In this document: positions 9,471 through 18,200 of the stretch, one piece after another
How the letters are laid out: each line of letters opens with the position of its first letter
Position numbering within the stretch: position 1 is the first letter of the stretch
IMG/VR virus record: IMGVR_UViG_3300010883_000236
Span: 1 to 31,798 of that record
Length of the DNA stretch: 31,798 nt
Strand: one strand, 5' to 3'
DNA from: a virus
Position numbers and translations under genes: made by a program
Notes under the pieces: model-generated
What the model saw: only the letters and a program-made list of their open reading frames with translations
Told to the model about the DNA's origin: nothing
Databases searched by the model: none

Positions 9471-10214
9471 ATGGTAGACCGAGTGACCCTAAATGAAGAG
9501 GCCGCTCCTTCTGATGACCCCCAGCTTGATGAAGCTCAAGAAGAGAGTCCTGAGAAGGTAGAGGAACAAACAGAAGAACAAACAGAAGAACAAGAGGAAC
9601 CTTCTGAAAGACCCGAATGGTTAAACTCAAAGTTTGAGACCCCTGAAGATATGGCGAGAGCCTACTCTAACCTCGAAAAGAAGTTAGGGAGTCGGCAGGC
9701 AGAAGAACAGGGACTATTAACCGCTGACGATCTTGATAAATATTCGGAAGAATATGGAGAAGGAGGTTTAACTGATAAATCTTATGATGAGTTAGCCAAG
9801 AAAGGGCTATCGAGGGAGGTAGTTGACCGTTACATTAATGGCCAAGAGCATGTCGCGGCAGGCATGGTATCAGAACTACATGAACTGGCAGGGGGGAAGG
9901 AAGGTTACGAGTCAATGTCCAAGTGGGCAGGCGAGTCCTTAGCCCCTGATGAGTTAGAGGCTTTTAATACTGCGGTTCAAAGCGGTGAAGTGGGGCAGGC
10001 GAAGCTTGCGATTCGGGGACTCTACTCCCAGTATAGGCAGGGGAATCCTGTTCCCCAATTAGTTCAGGGTGGTAAGGCGAACCAAGTAGGTGGGTACGGA
10101 TCACTCATGGAAATGACAAACGACATGAAAGACCCCCGTTATCAAGCTGGTGACAGGAACTTCCACGCACATGTGGAGTCTCGCATCGCTTCGACATCAG
10201 GGGATATCATATAA
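9471..10214 (+). CDS. Capsid scaffolding/assembly protein (T7 gp9-like)
   Basis: A 247-aa acidic protein (T7 gp9 is 307 aa) that directs procapsid assembly and then leaves. The first 45 residues are almost all Glu, Gln, Asp and Pro, and include a Glu-Gln-Thr-Glu tandem repeat. This is followed by RPEWLNSKFETPEDMARAYSNLEKKLG, the motif common to podophage scaffolds. The centre is helical and charged. The C-terminus LMEMTNDMKDPRYQAGDRNFHAHVESRIA fits the capsid-binding end of scaffolds, where a DPRY motif is common. Position between portal and capsid genes agrees. ATG 9471 follows AATAATT with no Shine-Dalgarno. Confidence 0.92.
   Translation: MVDRVTLNEEAAPSDDPQLDEAQEESPEKVEEQTEEQTEEQEEPSERPEWLNSKFETPEDMARAYSNLEKKLGSRQAEEQGLLTADDLDKYSEEYGEGGLTDKSYDELAKKGLSREVVDRYINGQEHVAAGMVSELHELAGGKEGYESMSKWAGESLAPDELEAFNTAVQSGEVGQAKLAIRGLYSQYRQGNPVPQLVQGGKANQVGGYGSLMEMTNDMKDPRYQAGDRNFHAHVESRIASTSGDII
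9564..9599 (+). repeat. 12-bp tandem repeat in the scaffold gene
   Basis: Three in-frame 12-bp units (GAACAAACAGAA twice, then GAACAAGAGGAA) encode the EQTE EQTE EQEE acidic stretch. It probably varies in copy number by slippage and adds acidic length to a disordered N-terminus. Confidence 0.8.
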
Positions 10215-10226
10215 CCAGAAAATAAT

Positions 10227-10361
10227 ATGCTACAAGAAACGCCAGAGACGGCCCCAAAGGGGAAACAGAAATCAGAACCAACAGCCAAACCGGCTCCTGC
10301 GGTGGAACCCCCACCCGCTGACCCGAAACCTTGGCTTAATAATCCGAAAGACGAACGATGA
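10227..10361 (+). CDS. Small proline-rich protein (44 aa)
   Basis: A 44-aa frame starts at ATG 10227, 12 nt after the scaffold stop, and ends in CGATGA, so that its TGA overlaps the next gene's ATG (10358) by the classic ATGA coupling. The product begins MLQETPETAPKGKQKSEP, continues with a Pro/Ala run (AKPAPAVEPPPADPKP) and ends WLNNPKDER. It is probably disordered. No domain recognised. Support comes from filling the only gap between scaffold and the secreted protein gene, the AATAAT-ATG context shared with neighbouring genes, and the ATGA overlap. It might instead be a non-coding spacer. Confidence 0.55.
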   Translation: MLQETPETAPKGKQKSEPTAKPAPAVEPPPADPKPWLNNPKDER

Positions 10362-10684
10362 AAAAAATATTACTTATTATTGGTGTAGCGTTGTTCGCAA
10401 CGACTGCAAACGCAAATGGAAAGAAACCTAGTGTCTTTGGGGCGCACCTTAAGCCTGTCCCAAGTGTCACCTTGTTTGGTCAGACCATTAAGTGGGAGAT
10501 TCCCTCCTTGTGCTTAGGTAAAGCAGCAGGGGTTCTCCCTGACGCTAAGATATCTGCTGAAAGGATCAGCTTTAAGATTCCTTATCTAGCTATAGATATT
10601 CCTCTTCCCTCCCTCGTTCTCGGAGTCGGGACGAACAGGGTTGAGGTAAAGCTAGGAGAAATTAACAAGAGTTCCCAAGAATAA
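10358..10684 (+). CDS. Secreted/periplasmic protein with Sec signal peptide, unknown function
   Basis: A 108-aa protein with a textbook signal peptide: MKK, a hydrophobic core ILLIIGVALFATT, and a likely signal peptidase I site after ANA (residue about 19). The mature part of about 89 residues has alternating hydrophobic and polar residues (VTLFGQTIKWEIPSLCLG, ISFKIPYLAIDIPLPSLVLGVG) suggesting β-strands or membrane-surface association, with one Cys. I do not recognise the family. It sits directly before a holin-like gene, so a periplasmic role around lysis or superinfection control is plausible but unproven. No zinc, Glu-Asp-Thr or other endolysin-like motif is visible. Confidence 0.75.
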   Translation: MKKILLIIGVALFATTANANGKKPSVFGAHLKPVPSVTLFGQTIKWEIPSLCLGKAAGVLPDAKISAERISFKIPYLAIDIPLPSLVLGVGTNRVEVKLGEINKSSQE

Positions 10685-10710: not shown

Positions 10711-10974
10711 ATGCCTAACACGAAAGTAAGTGTGCCGGTGGTTAACGAAACGGTTAAGAAACCGGGATATAAATCCACCGAGTTCTACATGAGCATGCTG
10801 GCTGTAGTCATTGGAGCCGTTGCTTCCTCTGGAATACTGGATGGAAGCGATGGTTTAACCAAGGTTGTTGGCCTAATCATGGCTGCTTTGGTTGCCCTTG
10901 GCTACACAGGTTCCCGTTTGACCATAAAGAAATTGGATCACGCCAATGGTAGCGGCACTTCTAGCAATTCTTAA
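10711..10974 (+). CDS. Holin-like membrane protein, two transmembrane segments
   Basis: An 87-aa protein with a polar N-terminus ending GYKSTEFYMS, a first hydrophobic segment (MLAVVIGAVASSGIL, about residues 29-43), a short DGSDG turn, a second segment (VVGLIMAALVALGYTG, about residues 54-69) and a basic then Gly/Ser-rich tail (KKLDHANGSGTSSNS). The pattern GYK-S/T-TEF(W/Y) before TM1 and ALGYT-x-SR at the end of TM2 recurs in small phage holins of Gram-negative hosts. A holin would permeabilise the inner membrane at the end of infection. Its last 29 nt overlap the start of the next frame. T7's holin gene (17.5) lies after the fibre gene instead. Confidence 0.75.
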   Translation: MPNTKVSVPVVNETVKKPGYKSTEFYMSMLAVVIGAVASSGILDGSDGLTKVVGLIMAALVALGYTGSRLTIKKLDHANGSGTSSNS

Positions 10975-11119
10975 GGAGATACTTAAGTTACTATGGGATG
11001 AAGCTGCTAAACCTGTTAAAGCAACGGTTGCTCCTGCCGTGCCTCGTAAGTTGCGTGATGCTTGGAAGCAACGGATGCTTGACAAGTGGCAAAAGAGTAG
11101 TCTTCATTCCAACGAGTGA
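10946..11119 (+). CDS. Nested 57-aa protein overlapping holin and lipoprotein genes
   Basis: A 57-aa frame starts at ATG 10946 inside the end of the holin-like gene (29-nt overlap) and ends at TGA 11117-11119, overlapping the lipoprotein gene by 122 nt in a different frame. The sequence begins MVAALLAILKEILKLLWDE, an amphipathic or weakly membrane-seeking helix. It continues with AAKPVKATVAPAVPR and ends in a basic helix RKLRDAWKQRMLDKWQK. The composition looks like a real protein, and similar short post-holin proteins with a Leu-rich start and Arg/Lys-rich end occur in environmental phages as far as I recall. It could be an i-spanin-like or holin-regulating protein, but it is too short for a classical Rz. 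Confidence 0.55.
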   Translation: MVAALLAILKEILKLLWDEAAKPVKATVAPAVPRKLRDAWKQRMLDKWQKSSLHSNE

Positions 11120-11264
11120 CACTTTGGTTCGTATCGGGCCAAGCGTTACAGGTCGAGTTTATTACTGGACAGGTGAGGAGTGGGAACTCTCTAAAAATAG
11201 AGTCACTCTACCTGAAGGTTGGTTAGCTGGGCCGCTAGATTTGCCCAAAGGGGACGCTGAATAG
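10998..11264 (+). CDS. Small lipoprotein, possible o-spanin-like lysis protein
   Basis: An 88-aa protein with a lipoprotein-type signal: basic start MKLLNLLKQR, hydrophobic core LLLPCLVSC, and lipobox LVSC with C19 as the likely lipidated Cys (a second Cys at 27 in SNGC is a weaker alternative). The mature part contains VVFIPTSDTLVRIGP, then GRVYYWTGEEWELS, then VTLPEGWLAGPL, looking like a small β domain anchored in the outer membrane. It starts within the preceding 57-aa frame and runs past it, an arrangement like overlapping Rz/Rz1 genes. The ATG at 10998 has only a distant AAGGAG (10973-10978). Lysis function is inferred from its neighbour and topology, not from a recognised family. Confidence 0.68.
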   Translation: MKLLNLLKQRLLLPCLVSCVMLGSNGCLTSGKRVVFIPTSDTLVRIGPSVTGRVYYWTGEEWELSKNRVTLPEGWLAGPLDLPKGDAE

Positions 11265-11368: not shown

Positions 11369-12547
11369 ATGGGTTTTAATGATAATCTATTCAGTATTAG
11401 CGGCAGCAACTTTGCGGGTCGCTTAGGTTCCGACAAGCAAGTCGGTGACGCAACGGCACTTTTCCTCAAGAAATTTGCTGGAGAAGTATTAACGGTATTC
11501 GATCAAAAGAATATCATGAAGCCCCTTCACACGATCAGAACGATCACGAAGGGGAAATCGGCACAGTTCCCGGTAATCGGTACTGCTGCCAGCGGCTACT
11601 ACTCACCGGGTTCAGACATTTTGGCAGTTGCGCCAAACGCTGATGGCTCGTTGGGCGGTCTTAACGCAATCAAAAATAGTGAGCGAATGATTCACATTGA
11701 TAAGGTGCTGATGTCTTCGACATTCATTGCCTCCATTGATGAGTTGGTCTCTCACTTTGATGTACGTTCTCCTTATTCCCACCAGCTAGGTGAGGCTTTG
11801 GCGAATCGGTTCGATAAGAACGTACTGAAGGTTGCGGTCAAGACAGGTGCTAAGGATGGAACAGATGGTGTGGATGCCAATGGTTTGGTTCCTGCTGATG
11901 CGTTCATCTCTGGTGTCACCACGCAAGGTTCGGTTGTGTACTCGCAAACTGCTGCGGGGACTGTCTCGGACTATGATGGAGCTAACACCTCTGGTGCTGG
12001 TGCTGCTGTTGGCAAACTACGCGATGATCCTACTGCATCTTACCTCCGCAAGGCTCTCTTTGAGTCGGCACGGTTGTTGGATGAGAAGGACGTTCCTCAG
12101 AGTGATCGGTACTGTATCCTCACTCCTAAGATGTATTACGAGTTGATCAACAACTCTGAGAATACTGACGTAGTGAACTCCATTATCAACAAAGATGTTG
12201 GTGGTGCTGGTTCGGTCTCGGCAGGAACCTTAGGTCAGGTTGCTGGTATTACCATCCTCACAAGTAATCATCTCCCAAGTGCTGCTGATGTCAGCACGGA
12301 TAACCAATGGGCATCGCAGTCGCCTGCGAATGATTACACCCTGAAGTATCAGGATTGTGCTGGTATCGTCTTCCAGAAGGGTGGCTTTGCTACCTTGAAG
12401 TTGATGGACTTGACGATGGAGTCTGAGTATATGATCGCTCGTCAGGGCAATCTGTTTGTTGCCAAGTACAGCATGGGTCACGGGTCATTGCGGCCTGAGT
12501 CCGTTGTTGTTTGGTCTGACAGTCGCCAACGTGGTGCTGCCTCCTGA
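11369..12547 (+). CDS. Major capsid protein (T7 gp10-like)
   Basis: A 392-aa HK97-fold capsid subunit (T7 gp10A is 345 aa). The N-terminal part LGSDKQVGDATALFLKKFAGEVLTVFDQKNIM and KGKSAQFPVIGTAASGYYSPG is characteristic of podophage capsid proteins, and SERMIHIDKVLMSSTFIASIDELVSHFDVR corresponds to the E-loop to spine region. The C-terminal part KLMDLTMESEYMIARQGNLFVAKYSMGHGSLRPE is also typical. No frameshift extension like T7 gp10B is evident: the stop is followed within 15 bp by a terminator. Ala/Gly-rich insert VTTQGSVVYSQTAAGTVSDYDGANTSGAGA (described here in parts, residues about 183-212) probably forms a surface loop. The gene begins after an ATAAAATATT leader lacking a Shine-Dalgarno. 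Confidence 0.96.
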   Translation: MGFNDNLFSISGSNFAGRLGSDKQVGDATALFLKKFAGEVLTVFDQKNIMKPLHTIRTITKGKSAQFPVIGTAASGYYSPGSDILAVAPNADGSLGGLNAIKNSERMIHIDKVLMSSTFIASIDELVSHFDVRSPYSHQLGEALANRFDKNVLKVAVKTGAKDGTDGVDANGLVPADAFISGVTTQGSVVYSQTAAGTVSDYDGANTSGAGAAVGKLRDDPTASYLRKALFESARLLDEKDVPQSDRYCILTPKMYYELINNSENTDVVNSIINKDVGGAGSVSAGTLGQVAGITILTSNHLPSAADVSTDNQWASQSPANDYTLKYQDCAGIVFQKGGFATLKLMDLTMESEYMIARQGNLFVAKYSMGHGSLRPESVVVWSDSRQRGAAS

Positions 12548-12606: not shown

Positions 12607-13437
12607 ATGGCTTACGGCGCAACAACACCAAAACTAGAGGCAATCAACCAGATGTTGTCCACCATTGGGCAAGCACGGGTAGCTACCCTGCAAACCTCTG
12701 GTGAAGCTTATGATGCTCAGAAGATTTTAGAAGAAGTAGACAAAGCCGTTCAGTCTGAAGGTTGGCATTTCAATAGACTCTACAATGAGAAGCTTTATAA
12801 AGGCACAGGTACTCTTGCTATAGATGCAATTGCTACTAATGTAAATGTCACTACACAGAAACCTCATTACCTTATCAAGGGTGAGAAGATTACCGTTGGA
12901 ATTATAACCGATGTAACTGTTTCGTCGGTCACGACTGCGGATACCTTTGTGGCTGACCAAACAGTTACCGGGACTGATATTATTTATGCTAATCGTGTGG
13001 TAACCCCTACGACTGCCTTACTGGTAGACTTAAATATTTATGATTATAATAATGCCGACCCCATAGTTAGGGGTAAGTTTATTTATGATAAGAGTGGAGG
13101 AACCTATGAATTTAATGACGATCTAACAGCAGTTGTTGTATATCAGGTTCCATTTGAACAGTCAGAGTCAGGAGAGCCTGCGCTTCCTGAGTATGCTCGG
13201 CGGTTTATTACGATGAGAGCCGCTAGAGTGTTTGCCCAGCGTCATGTTGGTGACCCTCAATTACTTCAATTTTGTATTCAAGAAGAGCGGGATGCCTACA
13301 CCCAGTTTCTCCAAGCGGAAGCCGACAATTCTGACATCTCTATCTTTGATTCGGCACTTCCTTATTACACAGTAGCAAGGAATTCTAGCTCAAACATAGC
13401 ACCCATTAGCAGTCTTTACAGAGTGAAACCAGTATAA
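12607..13437 (+). CDS. Tail tubular protein A (T7 gp11-like)
   Basis: A 276-aa protein (T7 gp11 is 196 aa) that forms the ring between portal and nozzle. The N-terminus KLEAINQMLSTIGQARVATL and the following AQKILEEVDKAVQSEGWHFN are the family hallmarks, and PALPEYARRFITMRAARVFAQRHVGD is the conserved C-terminal helix block. The extra length is a β-rich segment of about 80 residues in the middle (around residues 75-160), with many Thr, Val and Asp residues. The gene starts 9 nt after the terminator's T-run with an A/T-rich leader, and its stop overlaps the next start (TAATG). Confidence 0.93.
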   Translation: MAYGATTPKLEAINQMLSTIGQARVATLQTSGEAYDAQKILEEVDKAVQSEGWHFNRLYNEKLYKGTGTLAIDAIATNVNVTTQKPHYLIKGEKITVGIITDVTVSSVTTADTFVADQTVTGTDIIYANRVVTPTTALLVDLNIYDYNNADPIVRGKFIYDKSGGTYEFNDDLTAVVVYQVPFEQSESGEPALPEYARRFITMRAARVFAQRHVGDPQLLQFCIQEERDAYTQFLQAEADNSDISIFDSALPYYTVARNSSSNIAPISSLYRVKPV

Positions 13438-16400
13438 TGCCTATTGTTAAATATGCAGTTACTAATTTGTCACAAGGGGCGAGCCAGCAAGCTGAGTCTC
13501 AAAGGTTCCCGTCCCAAGCGGCTGAACAAATTAACGGTTACTCATCCCACATTAAGGGATTAGTTAAGCGTCCGCCGCTAAAGCATGTTGCGGAGGTCGA
13601 TGTCAATGCGGGTTCAGCAACTCAATCTTTTCTTCATGTAACCCATCGAGATGCTGACGAGAGATTTGCCGTAGTTATTAACAAGGGGACTGAGGTTGAC
13701 ATTACAGGGGTGGGTACATCAGGTGCGGTTTTGTATTCTCAGGCTGCTCATGCGTTTTCGGTAGGAGATCAGGTTCAGTTTGTCATGCTCGGCCACTCGG
13801 ATGAGATTCCCGCTGGCATCACACAGGGGGTAACTTATTTTGTTCATTCAATAGGAACCGTCTCACCGGGGAATCTATATTTTACTGTTAAAAAACTCTT
13901 AACTGATACCACATTCATCAAGCTAGGGACAACAGAGCTTGTTGCTCAAGGTTTCGGAGATGCAAATGACCAATATAAAGCAGGACTCTTGATCGAGTCT
14001 ATTCAGTTAGATTCAGGAGCATGGATAGATGGTGTCATCACTATTCGGTTCGATGATACGGTAGGTCATACCTATGATGTTGGTGAAAAGATCAACATGC
14101 CCTCTGATAACTGGCAGGGAAGTGCTCAATATTTTAATTGGGGTCGGTGGACTCCGTTTACTTTATTCCAGCCTGCCAAAACTTTAAGCCTCACCTCTTC
14201 AGGAACAAGTGGACAGACGTTGAGAGCCAATGAGCTTGCCAATAAGTTTTGGTTACGACACCAAGACGCTTGGGTTTACTCTAAGGCTGCGAACTACGGG
14301 TTGTTTATTGATGGTGATCAACTTTTCTTTGAGACCAATGCTGAAGGAACAGGACTAGGAGATAAGCTCGTCAGAAAAGAATTAGCGATGAGTGATATCA
14401 TTGGGTTTACCCATAAAGCAGTTCGCTTTTCTGTTAGTGGTAATGTCCTCACTAAGACAGACGGCACTTTAGATTGTACCACGCTTGCCAATGGTTTGCT
14501 TATTAAGATTGGCAATGCAGCTAATAATCCCCGTGCTATTATTATCTCAACGACTACCAACACCATTACGGTTGCTGAAAATGTTAACCTCACGGGAGCA
14601 GTTGAAGATAACTCTGGGGAAAGCTCTTACTTCCTGAAGTATTGGAGCAGCGTAAACAATTCCCAAGCCCAGAGATACTTTGCCCAGAGTGATTATCGTA
14701 CCGCAGGGTCAATCGTTAAGATTGGTGATGCTGGGGGGACTTGCACGGTCTACGGTGGTAGCAAGGGAGTAGGGCCGTATGTTTTTGATTTAGATACAGG
14801 AGCTAAGTATGATGTCGATGTCGATGACCGGCTAGGCATCAATCCCTATAAATATCTTCTGGCTATTAGCGATCCTTCACAGGATATCAAGGCTAAGACT
14901 ATTGGAGACACCACATTCTTAATCAACAAGACGATAGCCACTAGAGAGTCTTCATGGTCAGCTAATTATAGGAGATATGAAGCCTTCATCACCGTTCGAC
15001 AGGCTGACTACGCAAAGTATTATAAGATCAAGATAGGGACTGATGCCATTGAAGCTGCACAACCTGAGATTGGAGAAACCACAGCAACTAAATCGTACAC
15101 CACATTGTACGGAGCAACTGTATCTTCCCAAACTTATAACAACTGCGACAAAGCGGTCTCCCGCCCTATCTGTCGGGTTCAACATACAATAGCTGGAGTA
15201 GGTAACTCGACTTTGATTAGGCTGATGCAGAACTTTCAGTTTGGTTATGGAGTTACTCAAGGTGGGGATGACAGACCTAACGCAGTCTTTGCTAGTTGGG
15301 GAACTGATTCTAAAAGCTTAATGCCCAACGCAGAGGGAGGTGCTTTCTTAGAATCATCTAAGCAAGACCTTCGCAGAGCACAGATGGGTATTGATTTAGA
15401 TAAGTGGCAGAATGAGAAGGGAGCTTACCAGCAGGCTCACCAAGATACTGATCGAGTGGCTCTTTATTATAACCCAACTGAGTCCCAGATATTTCTTTGG
15501 ATTAACTTCTATTGGGGGGACAATAACTATGCCGACAACACAAAGAATCCTTTTAACAATCTGACCACCGTCCGAGACCTTCAAACTTTCTTTAATAATA
15601 ATGCTGTTGGCGATGATTGGGAGATTCTTCTTTGTGATGCGGATGGGCTTGTTTCAACTGATGACGATTATGATTCTGAAACAGTCAGTACACTCGATGA
15701 CATTTTCTTAGATCAAGAACTTGGATCACAGGAAGCAGCAGAAGAACAGGAGTATCGTGATAAAGTTAGAACCGTTTATCCTTATGAAGGCGATGATTAC
15801 TCATGGGGTCTGGATTTCATTGTTAGGGAGACGGGTTACCGCTTCGTAAAAGTTGGACAATTTGAAGAGTACATGAAGATCGGGTTGCAGAATCCTGACT
15901 GCCCCACCCATAGGTTCTTGGATGAGAACCGAGACAGAACCAGCACAGATGGGGCTTCTGGAACAGGAACCCAAACGGGTCTTATCACCGGGGGGACAAC
16001 TGATGACGATTCCTCTGCTAAGTTTTACGATGGTGAGTTTTTCTATCGGAGTCCTAAGTGGACAGGGAATAAGAATCAAACCGCAGTTGGTACTGACAGG
16101 ATTGCTGAGATGCTCGCCAGTAACATGTACATCAACAACGGGCAGTATCTTGTTCATGGGGATGGAACGGCTGCTACCCTAAAACGGGCTGATGGCCGTG
16201 CTTTAACCCATTTCCAGAAAACACTTGGCGATGGTGAGGACGAGGGTCGCTTGGCACAACGAGAAGAGGGGGTTGGTTTAACTTATAATGCAGCAGACCG
16301 AAGCGTCAATGCAGGAGTTAGTCCACAAATTAATCAGGATAGGAATTTTATTCTCCAGAAGCTTAGTGATGAGACTAAGCGTGTTGGTCTCTTTGGTCAG

Positions 16401-18200
16401 GATTGGCATGTCGAACAAAAGGGGAGCACGATTGCTCTCCGCACGTTTAGTCCTACCACTAAATTTGACATCTCCGTTTCAGATGACTTAGGTGGGAACG
16501 GCTTAGAGTTGACTTACTTCGAGGTTGATGAAGCTGCAAAGCTCCCTGAGATATGTAGGCATGGCCATATAGTTAAAGTGGTGGGTAACGCTAGGGAAGA
16601 GGCAGATGATTATTACCTTGAGTTTGTTTCGGATAACAAAGACCCACAGTTTTTATCTCATGGACGGTGGAAAGAGTGTGCAGGCTTTAATATTCCTGCC
16701 GCCATTAATCCCCGGTCTCTTCCTGTAATTTTAACCAGACACTTCAGACCTAATGGTACGAAATTCTTTAAGATTGGTCATCGGGCGTTTAACGAAAGAA
16801 AGGCAGGCGACAAAAACACCAACCCAATGCCATCCTTTGTCGGAAAACCCTTAACAGATATCTTCTTGTTCAAGAACCGACTTGGTTTCATTTCTGACAG
16901 AGAGGTGTGCATGAGTGAGTCAGGTGAGTTCTTTAACTTCTTTAGACGAACCGTTGCTGCGCTGTTAGATTCAGCACCAATCAATGTTTCTGCTGCTTCA
17001 GAGCGTGTGGCAAAAATTAGCTCTGCTCTTACTTATTCCGAGAGACTGCTACTCTTTAGTGACAATCAGCAGTTCGCTTTACAGGGTGATGCCTACTTGT
17101 CCCCAAAGACAGTCAACATCACACCCACTACAGATTTCAACACAAGCACTACAGCTACTCCTGTCTTAGCCGGTAGTTCTGTATTCTTTACCTTTCCCCG
17201 AACTGGTTTTGGAGGAGTATCAGAATACTTCCTGTCGAAAGATCAGCTTGACAGCATGGACGCTAAGGATGTGACTGCTCATATCCCTAAGTACATCAAG
17301 GGAAACATCATCAAGATGGCTACATGTCCCTCAGAAGATGTCCTTGTTGTTCTGACAGATCACGCAACGGTAGCGGGAGAGAAGGCGAGGCTTTATATCT
17401 ACAAGTATTATCTAGCTGACAACAACCAGAAGGTTCAGTCTGCTTGGTTCACTTACGAGACAGGTGATCAATATTCTCAGTTTTTATCAATAGATTTTCT
17501 TGGTAACAAATTATACGCTGTAATCAAGCGAGGCAATGAAGTCTATATTGAATCACTTCTCTTTGAAGATGCCCAGATAGATACTGGTAAGGATTATCAG
17601 ATTCTTTTGGATCGAAGAATCACTAAGGCATCAGGAGATAATACTGTAGTTTTTGCTACGGGTAACACAACCATAACTCTTCCGTATGCTCCATCCGCTG
17701 CGTTCACGGTCATGAAGGCTGACAACACTCCGCTGACTGCCACTTCAGTAACCAGCACAACTGCGGTTTTCAATGGGGTTGATCTGACAGGGCAGGAGTT
17801 AATCATGGGCGAGCCTTACACGATGACCTACGAATTATCTCGTCCGTTCCTGCGGAAGAAACTTCAGGGAGATAGCAAAGGAACCCTCTTGGGAGGAAGG
17901 CATCAACTAGCAAGGGGAACTCTAGAATTTACTAACGCCAGATCGTTCAGCGTGGCTGTCACGCATCAGCCCCAGAATGTTTCTGTTAGCAGTAGTCACA
18001 GTTTTAATGGTGTGGAGTTGGGGTATGCAAGTGGAGTGGAAGGATCAAGCGTATTATCTCAAGGATTTTATTCCTTTGGGATTCAGGGAAAAAATGATAA
18101 GGTGGATATTACCTTGAGCAACGCCACGCCTTATCCTTCAGACTTTTTAAGTATAGACTATGAAGGCCGCGCGTATTCTAGAGGAACCCGTTGGGGGTAG
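13437..18200 (+). CDS. Tail tubular protein B / nozzle (T7 gp12-like), greatly enlarged
   Basis: A 1587-aa nozzle protein, twice T7 gp12 (794 aa). The family core is clear at the N-terminus (VTNLSQGASQQAESQRFPSQAAEQINGY), around residues 463-510 (DRLGINPYKYLLAISD, TIGDTTFLINKT) and from about 1090 (INPRSLPVILTRHF, then KNRLGFISDREVCMSESGEFFNFFRRT, RLLLFSDNQQFALQ and AHIPKYIKGNI). Extra sequence lies at about residues 90-450, where a GDQVQFVMLGHSDEIPAG-type β segment occurs, and at about 560-1000, a long polar, Asp/Gly/Thr-rich stretch. These inserts probably form surface domains on the nozzle. No frameshift is evident. Its end overlaps the next gene by 41 nt. Confidence 0.92.
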   Translation: MPIVKYAVTNLSQGASQQAESQRFPSQAAEQINGYSSHIKGLVKRPPLKHVAEVDVNAGSATQSFLHVTHRDADERFAVVINKGTEVDITGVGTSGAVLYSQAAHAFSVGDQVQFVMLGHSDEIPAGITQGVTYFVHSIGTVSPGNLYFTVKKLLTDTTFIKLGTTELVAQGFGDANDQYKAGLLIESIQLDSGAWIDGVITIRFDDTVGHTYDVGEKINMPSDNWQGSAQYFNWGRWTPFTLFQPAKTLSLTSSGTSGQTLRANELANKFWLRHQDAWVYSKAANYGLFIDGDQLFFETNAEGTGLGDKLVRKELAMSDIIGFTHKAVRFSVSGNVLTKTDGTLDCTTLANGLLIKIGNAANNPRAIIISTTTNTITVAENVNLTGAVEDNSGESSYFLKYWSSVNNSQAQRYFAQSDYRTAGSIVKIGDAGGTCTVYGGSKGVGPYVFDLDTGAKYDVDVDDRLGINPYKYLLAISDPSQDIKAKTIGDTTFLINKTIATRESSWSANYRRYEAFITVRQADYAKYYKIKIGTDAIEAAQPEIGETTATKSYTTLYGATVSSQTYNNCDKAVSRPICRVQHTIAGVGNSTLIRLMQNFQFGYGVTQGGDDRPNAVFASWGTDSKSLMPNAEGGAFLESSKQDLRRAQMGIDLDKWQNEKGAYQQAHQDTDRVALYYNPTESQIFLWINFYWGDNNYADNTKNPFNNLTTVRDLQTFFNNNAVGDDWEILLCDADGLVSTDDDYDSETVSTLDDIFLDQELGSQEAAEEQEYRDKVRTVYPYEGDDYSWGLDFIVRETGYRFVKVGQFEEYMKIGLQNPDCPTHRFLDENRDRTSTDGASGTGTQTGLITGGTTDDDSSAKFYDGEFFYRSPKWTGNKNQTAVGTDRIAEMLASNMYINNGQYLVHGDGTAATLKRADGRALTHFQKTLGDGEDEGRLAQREEGVGLTYNAADRSVNAGVSPQINQDRNFILQKLSDETKRVGLFGQDWHVEQKGSTIALRTFSPTTKFDISVSDDLGGNGLELTYFEVDEAAKLPEICRHGHIVKVVGNAREEADDYYLEFVSDNKDPQFLSHGRWKECAGFNIPAAINPRSLPVILTRHFRPNGTKFFKIGHRAFNERKAGDKNTNPMPSFVGKPLTDIFLFKNRLGFISDREVCMSESGEFFNFFRRTVAALLDSAPINVSAASERVAKISSALTYSERLLLFSDNQQFALQGDAYLSPKTVNITPTTDFNTSTTATPVLAGSSVFFTFPRTGFGGVSEYFLSKDQLDSMDAKDVTAHIPKYIKGNIIKMATCPSEDVLVVLTDHATVAGEKARLYIYKYYLADNNQKVQSAWFTYETGDQYSQFLSIDFLGNKLYAVIKRGNEVYIESLLFEDAQIDTGKDYQILLDRRITKASGDNTVVFATGNTTITLPYAPSAAFTVMKADNTPLTATSVTSTTAVFNGVDLTGQELIMGEPYTMTYELSRPFLRKKLQGDSKGTLLGGRHQLARGTLEFTNARSFSVAVTHQPQNVSVSSSHSFNGVELGYASGVEGSSVLSQGFYSFGIQGKNDKVDITLSNATPYPSDFLSIDYEGRAYSRGTRWG

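Follow-up and report, generated by a model that had tools for sequence, protein, structure and literature searches.

We found a cassette of three small overlapping genes in an uncultured aquatic phage, and all three occur together in every one of the 61 distinct loci that we compared. The genes code for a holin-like protein, a 57-aa cationic two-helix protein and a predicted lipoprotein. Judged by PHROGs and Pfam, no described family covers these proteins, and the last two form a conserved pair that is so far unannotated. We consider the chances about even that this is a late lysis cassette, with a two-TM holin-like protein and a compact overlapped pair resembling a two-component spanin. The window, meaning the whole stretch of DNA that we analysed, is a 31,798-base viral record (IMGVR_UViG_3300010883_000236). 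It has the following features:

10711..10974, + strand: holin-like protein, 87 aa (ORF, hydropathy, conserved in relatives)
10946..11119, + strand: 57-aa two-helix protein, net charge +5, candidate minimal i-spanin or membrane-active peptide (ORF, 61/61 loci, codon tests, AF2)
10949..11005, + strand: N-terminal hydrophobic/amphipathic helix of the 57-aa protein, residues 2-20 (AF2; KD19 1.27, hydrophobic moment 0.46)
10998..11119, + strand: 122 nt shared by two frames, coding both for the C-terminal part of the 57-aa protein and for the lipoprotein's signal peptide and linker
10998..11264, + strand: predicted outer-membrane lipoprotein, 88 aa, mature part ~62 aa, candidate o-spanin (ORF, alignment)
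11045..11095, + strand: C-terminal cationic helix of the 57-aa protein, residues 34-50, within the overlap (AF2, alignment)
11076..11078, + strand: codon of Cys27, the invariant predicted lipobox cysteine (alignments; SNGC in the window, LTGC, LAGC, LLAC etc. in relatives)
11124..11225, + strand: predicted small beta domain of the lipoprotein, residues 43-76 (AF2, pLDDT ~75-87 there and 67 overall)

A preliminary description of this DNA, made from the letters alone, had listed these three ORFs in three different frames with overlaps of 29 nt and 122 nt, and we confirmed the ORFs, the frames and the overlaps. The lipoprotein frame is +1 relative to the 57-aa frame. Scanning viral contigs gave 23, 74 and 27 loci, the lipoprotein family having 74 viral loci; the 61 are the distinct loci after duplicate removal, each with at least 450 nt of upstream sequence. 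A 57-aa-type ORF is kept in the same register over the lipoprotein in 61/61 loci and the third frame is open in 0/61. The holin-like gene is upstream in all of them (58 by motif and three, L080, L086 and L092, by reading). Among close relatives, all three ORFs are unbroken in the 15/15 other loci examined, with a lipoprotein overlap of 119-122 nt; across all loci listed, including the divergent ones, the overlap is 77-176 nt and in the +1 frame. The preliminary description had named two ways in which the pair could fall, either a 57-aa frame broken where the lipoprotein is kept or a missing lipoprotein signal together with absence of the genes from related phages. We saw neither of these, as the frame is unbroken at every locus, the signal is there and the genes are kept in relatives.

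We also looked at codons in both frames of the overlap, as had been proposed. When synonymous codons were redrawn with one protein fixed (20 diverse loci), the log10 products for the other frame staying open were -14.6 and -13.8; these assume independent loci, and since the loci are related the exponents are overstated. Counted by lipoprotein codon position, substitutions change from 16:11:45 in the tail outside the overlap to 13:32:32 within it (P = 0.0018). Position 2 of the lipoprotein codon falls on the wobble base of the 57-aa frame, and its release in the overlap is what purifying selection on the 57-aa protein would produce. These results indicate that selection acts on both frames of the overlap. 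We rejected a chance ORF as an explanation of the 57-aa frame, given the register kept throughout and the codon-position and synonymous-redrawing tests. As a separate observation, the window has a two-codon mini-ORF at 10993-11001 (ATG GGA TGA) that ends in a stop overlapping the start of the lipoprotein gene, which could mean reinitiation, and some relatives have a similar one (ATG GAA TGA).

For the lipoprotein, the lipobox had originally been assigned to an LVSC motif ending in Cys19. This assignment does not hold. Cys19 is replaced by Tyr in L016 and is missing in L021 and most divergent members, while Cys27, which follows a hydrophobic stretch, is invariant in 39/39 aligned sequences. On these alignments the lipobox cysteine is Cys27, not Cys19, and the protein has the signal peptide and lipobox of an o-spanin lipoprotein. 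The window's SNGC box is less canonical at -3; relatives have the canonical LTGC or LAGC. The AF2 model consists of a signal helix, a disordered linker and the small beta domain. The beta domain is coded just past the stop of the 57-aa frame, and the overlap contains the signal peptide and linker only.

We found no fold match for the lipoprotein model in the PDB with Foldseek, and a PDB sequence search returned frataxin and WW-domain matches only, none significant. The motifs GRVYYW and LPEGW (coded within 11151-11222) resemble WW-domain motifs in reversed order, the PDB matches being non-significant. The pair had no significant PHROG or Pfam match to a described spanin family; phrog_456, labelled "Rz-like spanin", gave weak matches in 6/39 lipoproteins (best E 0.014), and the one that we inspected was to the signal region. 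Neither the lipoprotein nor the holin-like protein had a match among INPHARED phages when the window and divergent members were the queries. A homology search of genome contigs yielded one partial MAG match, and our literature search found no paper on the cassette.

The AF2 model of the 57-aa protein has its two helices at residues 2-20 and 34-50 with a mean pLDDT of 81. In the window, hydropathy peaks at KD19 1.27 and the segment contains KE and K; the helix is amphipathic and not a clear TM. There is no positive charge at the N-terminus and no coiled coil, and the C-terminus is cationic. Of the 20 family members tested, seven have a KD19 above 1.6 (three above 2.1), and all 20 have a positive net charge, which is located in the tail. 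Some divergent orthologues (L053, L065, L091) do have a clear TM-like segment, with a KD19 of 2.2-2.4. The earlier remark that this protein has no clear TM is therefore right for the window, though it does not extend to these orthologues.

The first ORF had been called a two-TM protein, and hydropathy supports this with peaks at residues 25-43 and 48-70, followed by a cationic stretch beyond the second hydrophobic segment. By hydropathy, this small protein with two TM segments has the form of a class II holin. We could not place it in a described holin family, as its holin PHROG matches were all non-significant, and it has no significant PHROG or Pfam family of any kind. Only a superinfection-exclusion family recurs among its PHROG matches (14/16 members, best E 0.02), and this match is also non-significant.

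The window has T7-like podophage genes by Pfam and PHROG (SSB, endonuclease I, dNMP kinase, portal, scaffold, major capsid protein, nozzle and gp14), and by this gene content the phage is a member of an uncultured aquatic T7-like podophage group. Its portal matched 2,535 phage records, every one at less than 60% identity, with LUZ100 and Rhizobium phages the best. The cassette is flanked by the scaffold (9471-10214) and capsid (11369-12547) genes. Our scan of window proteins, which covered the gp15/gp16-like virion proteins, detected no endolysin domain, and there was none adjoining the cassette; none was recognised by reading in long relatives. Two small ORFs also lie in this interval. One is proline-rich (10227-10361, 44 aa) with an ATGA overlap with the next gene. 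The other, directly upstream of the cassette (10358-10684), is a 108-aa protein without a family that has a Sec-type signal peptide; it is present in some relatives (L048, G001) and was not seen in L042, L043 and L046.

Pseudomonas phage LUZ100 offers the closest comparison of position. In the interval between its capsid assembly and capsid genes, a gene for a small membrane protein is followed by an unannotated overlapped pair (L124:7140-7482), and the lipoprotein of this pair matches PHROG 1275 "Rz-like spanin" with an E of 2.4e-12. The two phages thus share the genomic site in a T7-like phage, the small membrane protein upstream and the overlapped membrane/lipoprotein genes. The LUZ100 partner differs in being 78 aa with a long charged region, and we detected no homology between its pair and the window proteins beyond the signal peptide. 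LUZ100 also has an annotated T7 gp17.5-like holin, located near the terminase. The presence of an Rz-like spanin pair at the same site supports the scaffold-capsid interval as a location for lysis genes.

In the spanin-like reading, the 57-aa protein would sit in the inner membrane through its N-terminal helix, and its cationic second helix would contact either the outer membrane on its inner face or the beta domain of the lipoprotein. Once the holin has triggered and peptidoglycan is lost, the pair may then fuse or destabilise the outer membrane. Overlapped inner-membrane and lipoprotein genes are one of the three standard architectures of two-component spanins, whose total periplasmic length is 62-300 residues (PMC6139136). 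The cassette has such an architecture (77-176 nt of overlap in a fixed register), and its combined periplasmic length would be ~100 aa, inside this range. The preliminary description had called the inner partner too short for an Rz/Rz1-type spanin; we rejected the 57-aa length as disqualifying, since known pairs go down to 62 periplasmic residues in total (PMC6139136).

The cassette shares with P2 LysB/LysC-type and lambda Rz/Rz1-class spanins (PMC6139136) a small inner-membrane-type gene overlapped in +1 by a lipoprotein gene that runs past its partner, a place among late genes and a periplasmic total in range. It differs from them in that we found no sequence homology, in its amphipathic 57-aa partner without a coiled coil, and in its place between scaffold and capsid genes without an adjacent endolysin. 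PHROG, Pfam and fold searches did not place the pair in a described spanin family, and hydropathy gives a clear TM in some orthologues of the 57-aa protein but not in the window, so we call it spanin-like and not a family member. Counting for the reading are the same gene order and +1 overlap at 61/61 loci, the sole convincing lipoprotein found in eight divergent contigs (see below) and the LUZ100 synteny; counting against it are the amphipathic 57-aa helix, a second terminase-proximal lipoprotein, the lack of an endolysin among the proteins searched and the lack of spanin homology. The original suggestion of an Rz/Rz1-like and perhaps distinct or minimal system thus survives in its overlap architecture, late position and synteny with LUZ100, and fails in its lipobox.

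We searched relatives for other lipoproteins. A strict scan missed the window's own lipoprotein, so we used a relaxed one, which still missed those of G007 and G030, and absence from the scan is therefore not proof. In the divergent terminase-containing contigs (G003, G004, G005, G006, G011, G013, G021, G022), the cassette lipoprotein is the sole convincing lipoprotein on the coding strand; G006 and G011 have one further weak pattern match each, which we took as chance. All five window-like contigs that reach the terminase (G001, G002, G033, G034, G009) have a second, proline-rich lipoprotein near it, which we located as follows:

L128:5942-6362, - strand: terminase-proximal proline-rich lipoprotein
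L138:2715-3162, - strand: the same
L177:17598-17825: the same
L182:12502-12762: the same
L183:1447-1665: the same

In 4/5 of the contigs (G001, G002, G033, G034) this lipoprotein overlaps a ~100-aa protein with an N-terminal TM and a coiled-coil-like stretch, whose PHROG similarity to an Rz-like spanin is weak (E 0.11). The family of this membrane protein has 24 loci, and the overlapping lipoprotein is absent from L153, L157 and L164 while the membrane protein stays. In the same phages, then, there are two overlapped pairs of a candidate inner-membrane protein and a lipoprotein. The terminase-proximal one differs in its longer coiled-coil-like partner and proline-rich lipoprotein, this partner is unrelated in sequence to that of the cassette, and by its layout it is the more canonical spanin candidate of the two. 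The window record stops short of this region, and we would expect the lipoprotein at the right end of the window phage, beyond the record.

It is possible, though we think it unlikely, that the cassette is a second outer-membrane-disruption system besides the terminase-proximal spanin, in which the cationic two-helix peptide and the beta-domain lipoprotein would act as a coupled pair, by a route other than coiled-coil spanin fusion. Such a double system in the window-like clade, if functional, would be more surprising than the cassette alone as a variant of a known architecture.

We also think it unlikely that the 57-aa protein acts like a disruptin, permeabilising the outer membrane after holin release as the phiKT peptide does, with the lipoprotein an accessory or a docking site. 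The peptide has the features of a cationic amphipathic helical disruptin, with a net charge of +5, a moment of 0.46 and two helices in the AF2 model, and in the window and its close relatives it lacks a clear TM. The window-like clade also has a further spanin-like lipoprotein or pair. The phiKT disruptin was reportedly found in a phage without spanins and we know of no lipoprotein coupled to it, both of which count against this reading, as do the clear TM-like segment in L053, L065 and L091 and the strict coupling to the lipoprotein (61/61 loci). The archetype disruptin is a short amphipathic helical peptide resembling LL-37, which counts in favour (PMC12819732). The likeness of the 57-aa protein to it, as another short cationic amphipathic helical phage peptide, is one of description (PMC12819732), and the 57-aa gene differs in its coupling to a lipoprotein and a holin-like gene.

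We regard it as improbable that the genes serve late envelope modification or superinfection exclusion instead of lysis, in which case the lipoprotein would block an outer-membrane receptor. The more canonical spanin candidate near the terminase of the window-like clade would fit this, along with the recurrent exclusion match of the first ORF and the Sec-type-signal protein just upstream. However, the PHROG matches are not significant, a late position and coupling to a small membrane protein are what one more typically sees in lysis genes, and the divergent relatives would be left without any spanin candidate that we found. Very improbable is that the 57-aa protein is an antiholin-type regulator of the overlapping holin, with the lipoprotein an independent late gene; the 29-nt overlap and the amphipathic membrane helix suit it, but in divergent loci (e.g. 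L052, L053, L074) the holin overlap is only a few nt and the lipoprotein overlap is still 77-176 nt.

Returning to the spanin-like reading, this conserved overlapped pair gives concrete genes from uncultured aquatic phages for testing outer-membrane disruption, and the scaffold-capsid interval is a place to look for such genes, as in LUZ100. Whether spanin functions can be redundant or sequential could be tested directly in the phages that have two lipoprotein systems.

We note two further observations on these genomes. Two contigs that are otherwise T7-like have proteins of 331-336 aa (L135:11938-12933, - strand, and L132:176-1186) that look integrase-like, by eye only. In the window, the nozzle (tail tubular B) protein (13437-18200) is 1587 aa, roughly double the 794 of the Pfam nozzle profile, and its profile match is split into three stretches, which points to large insertions.
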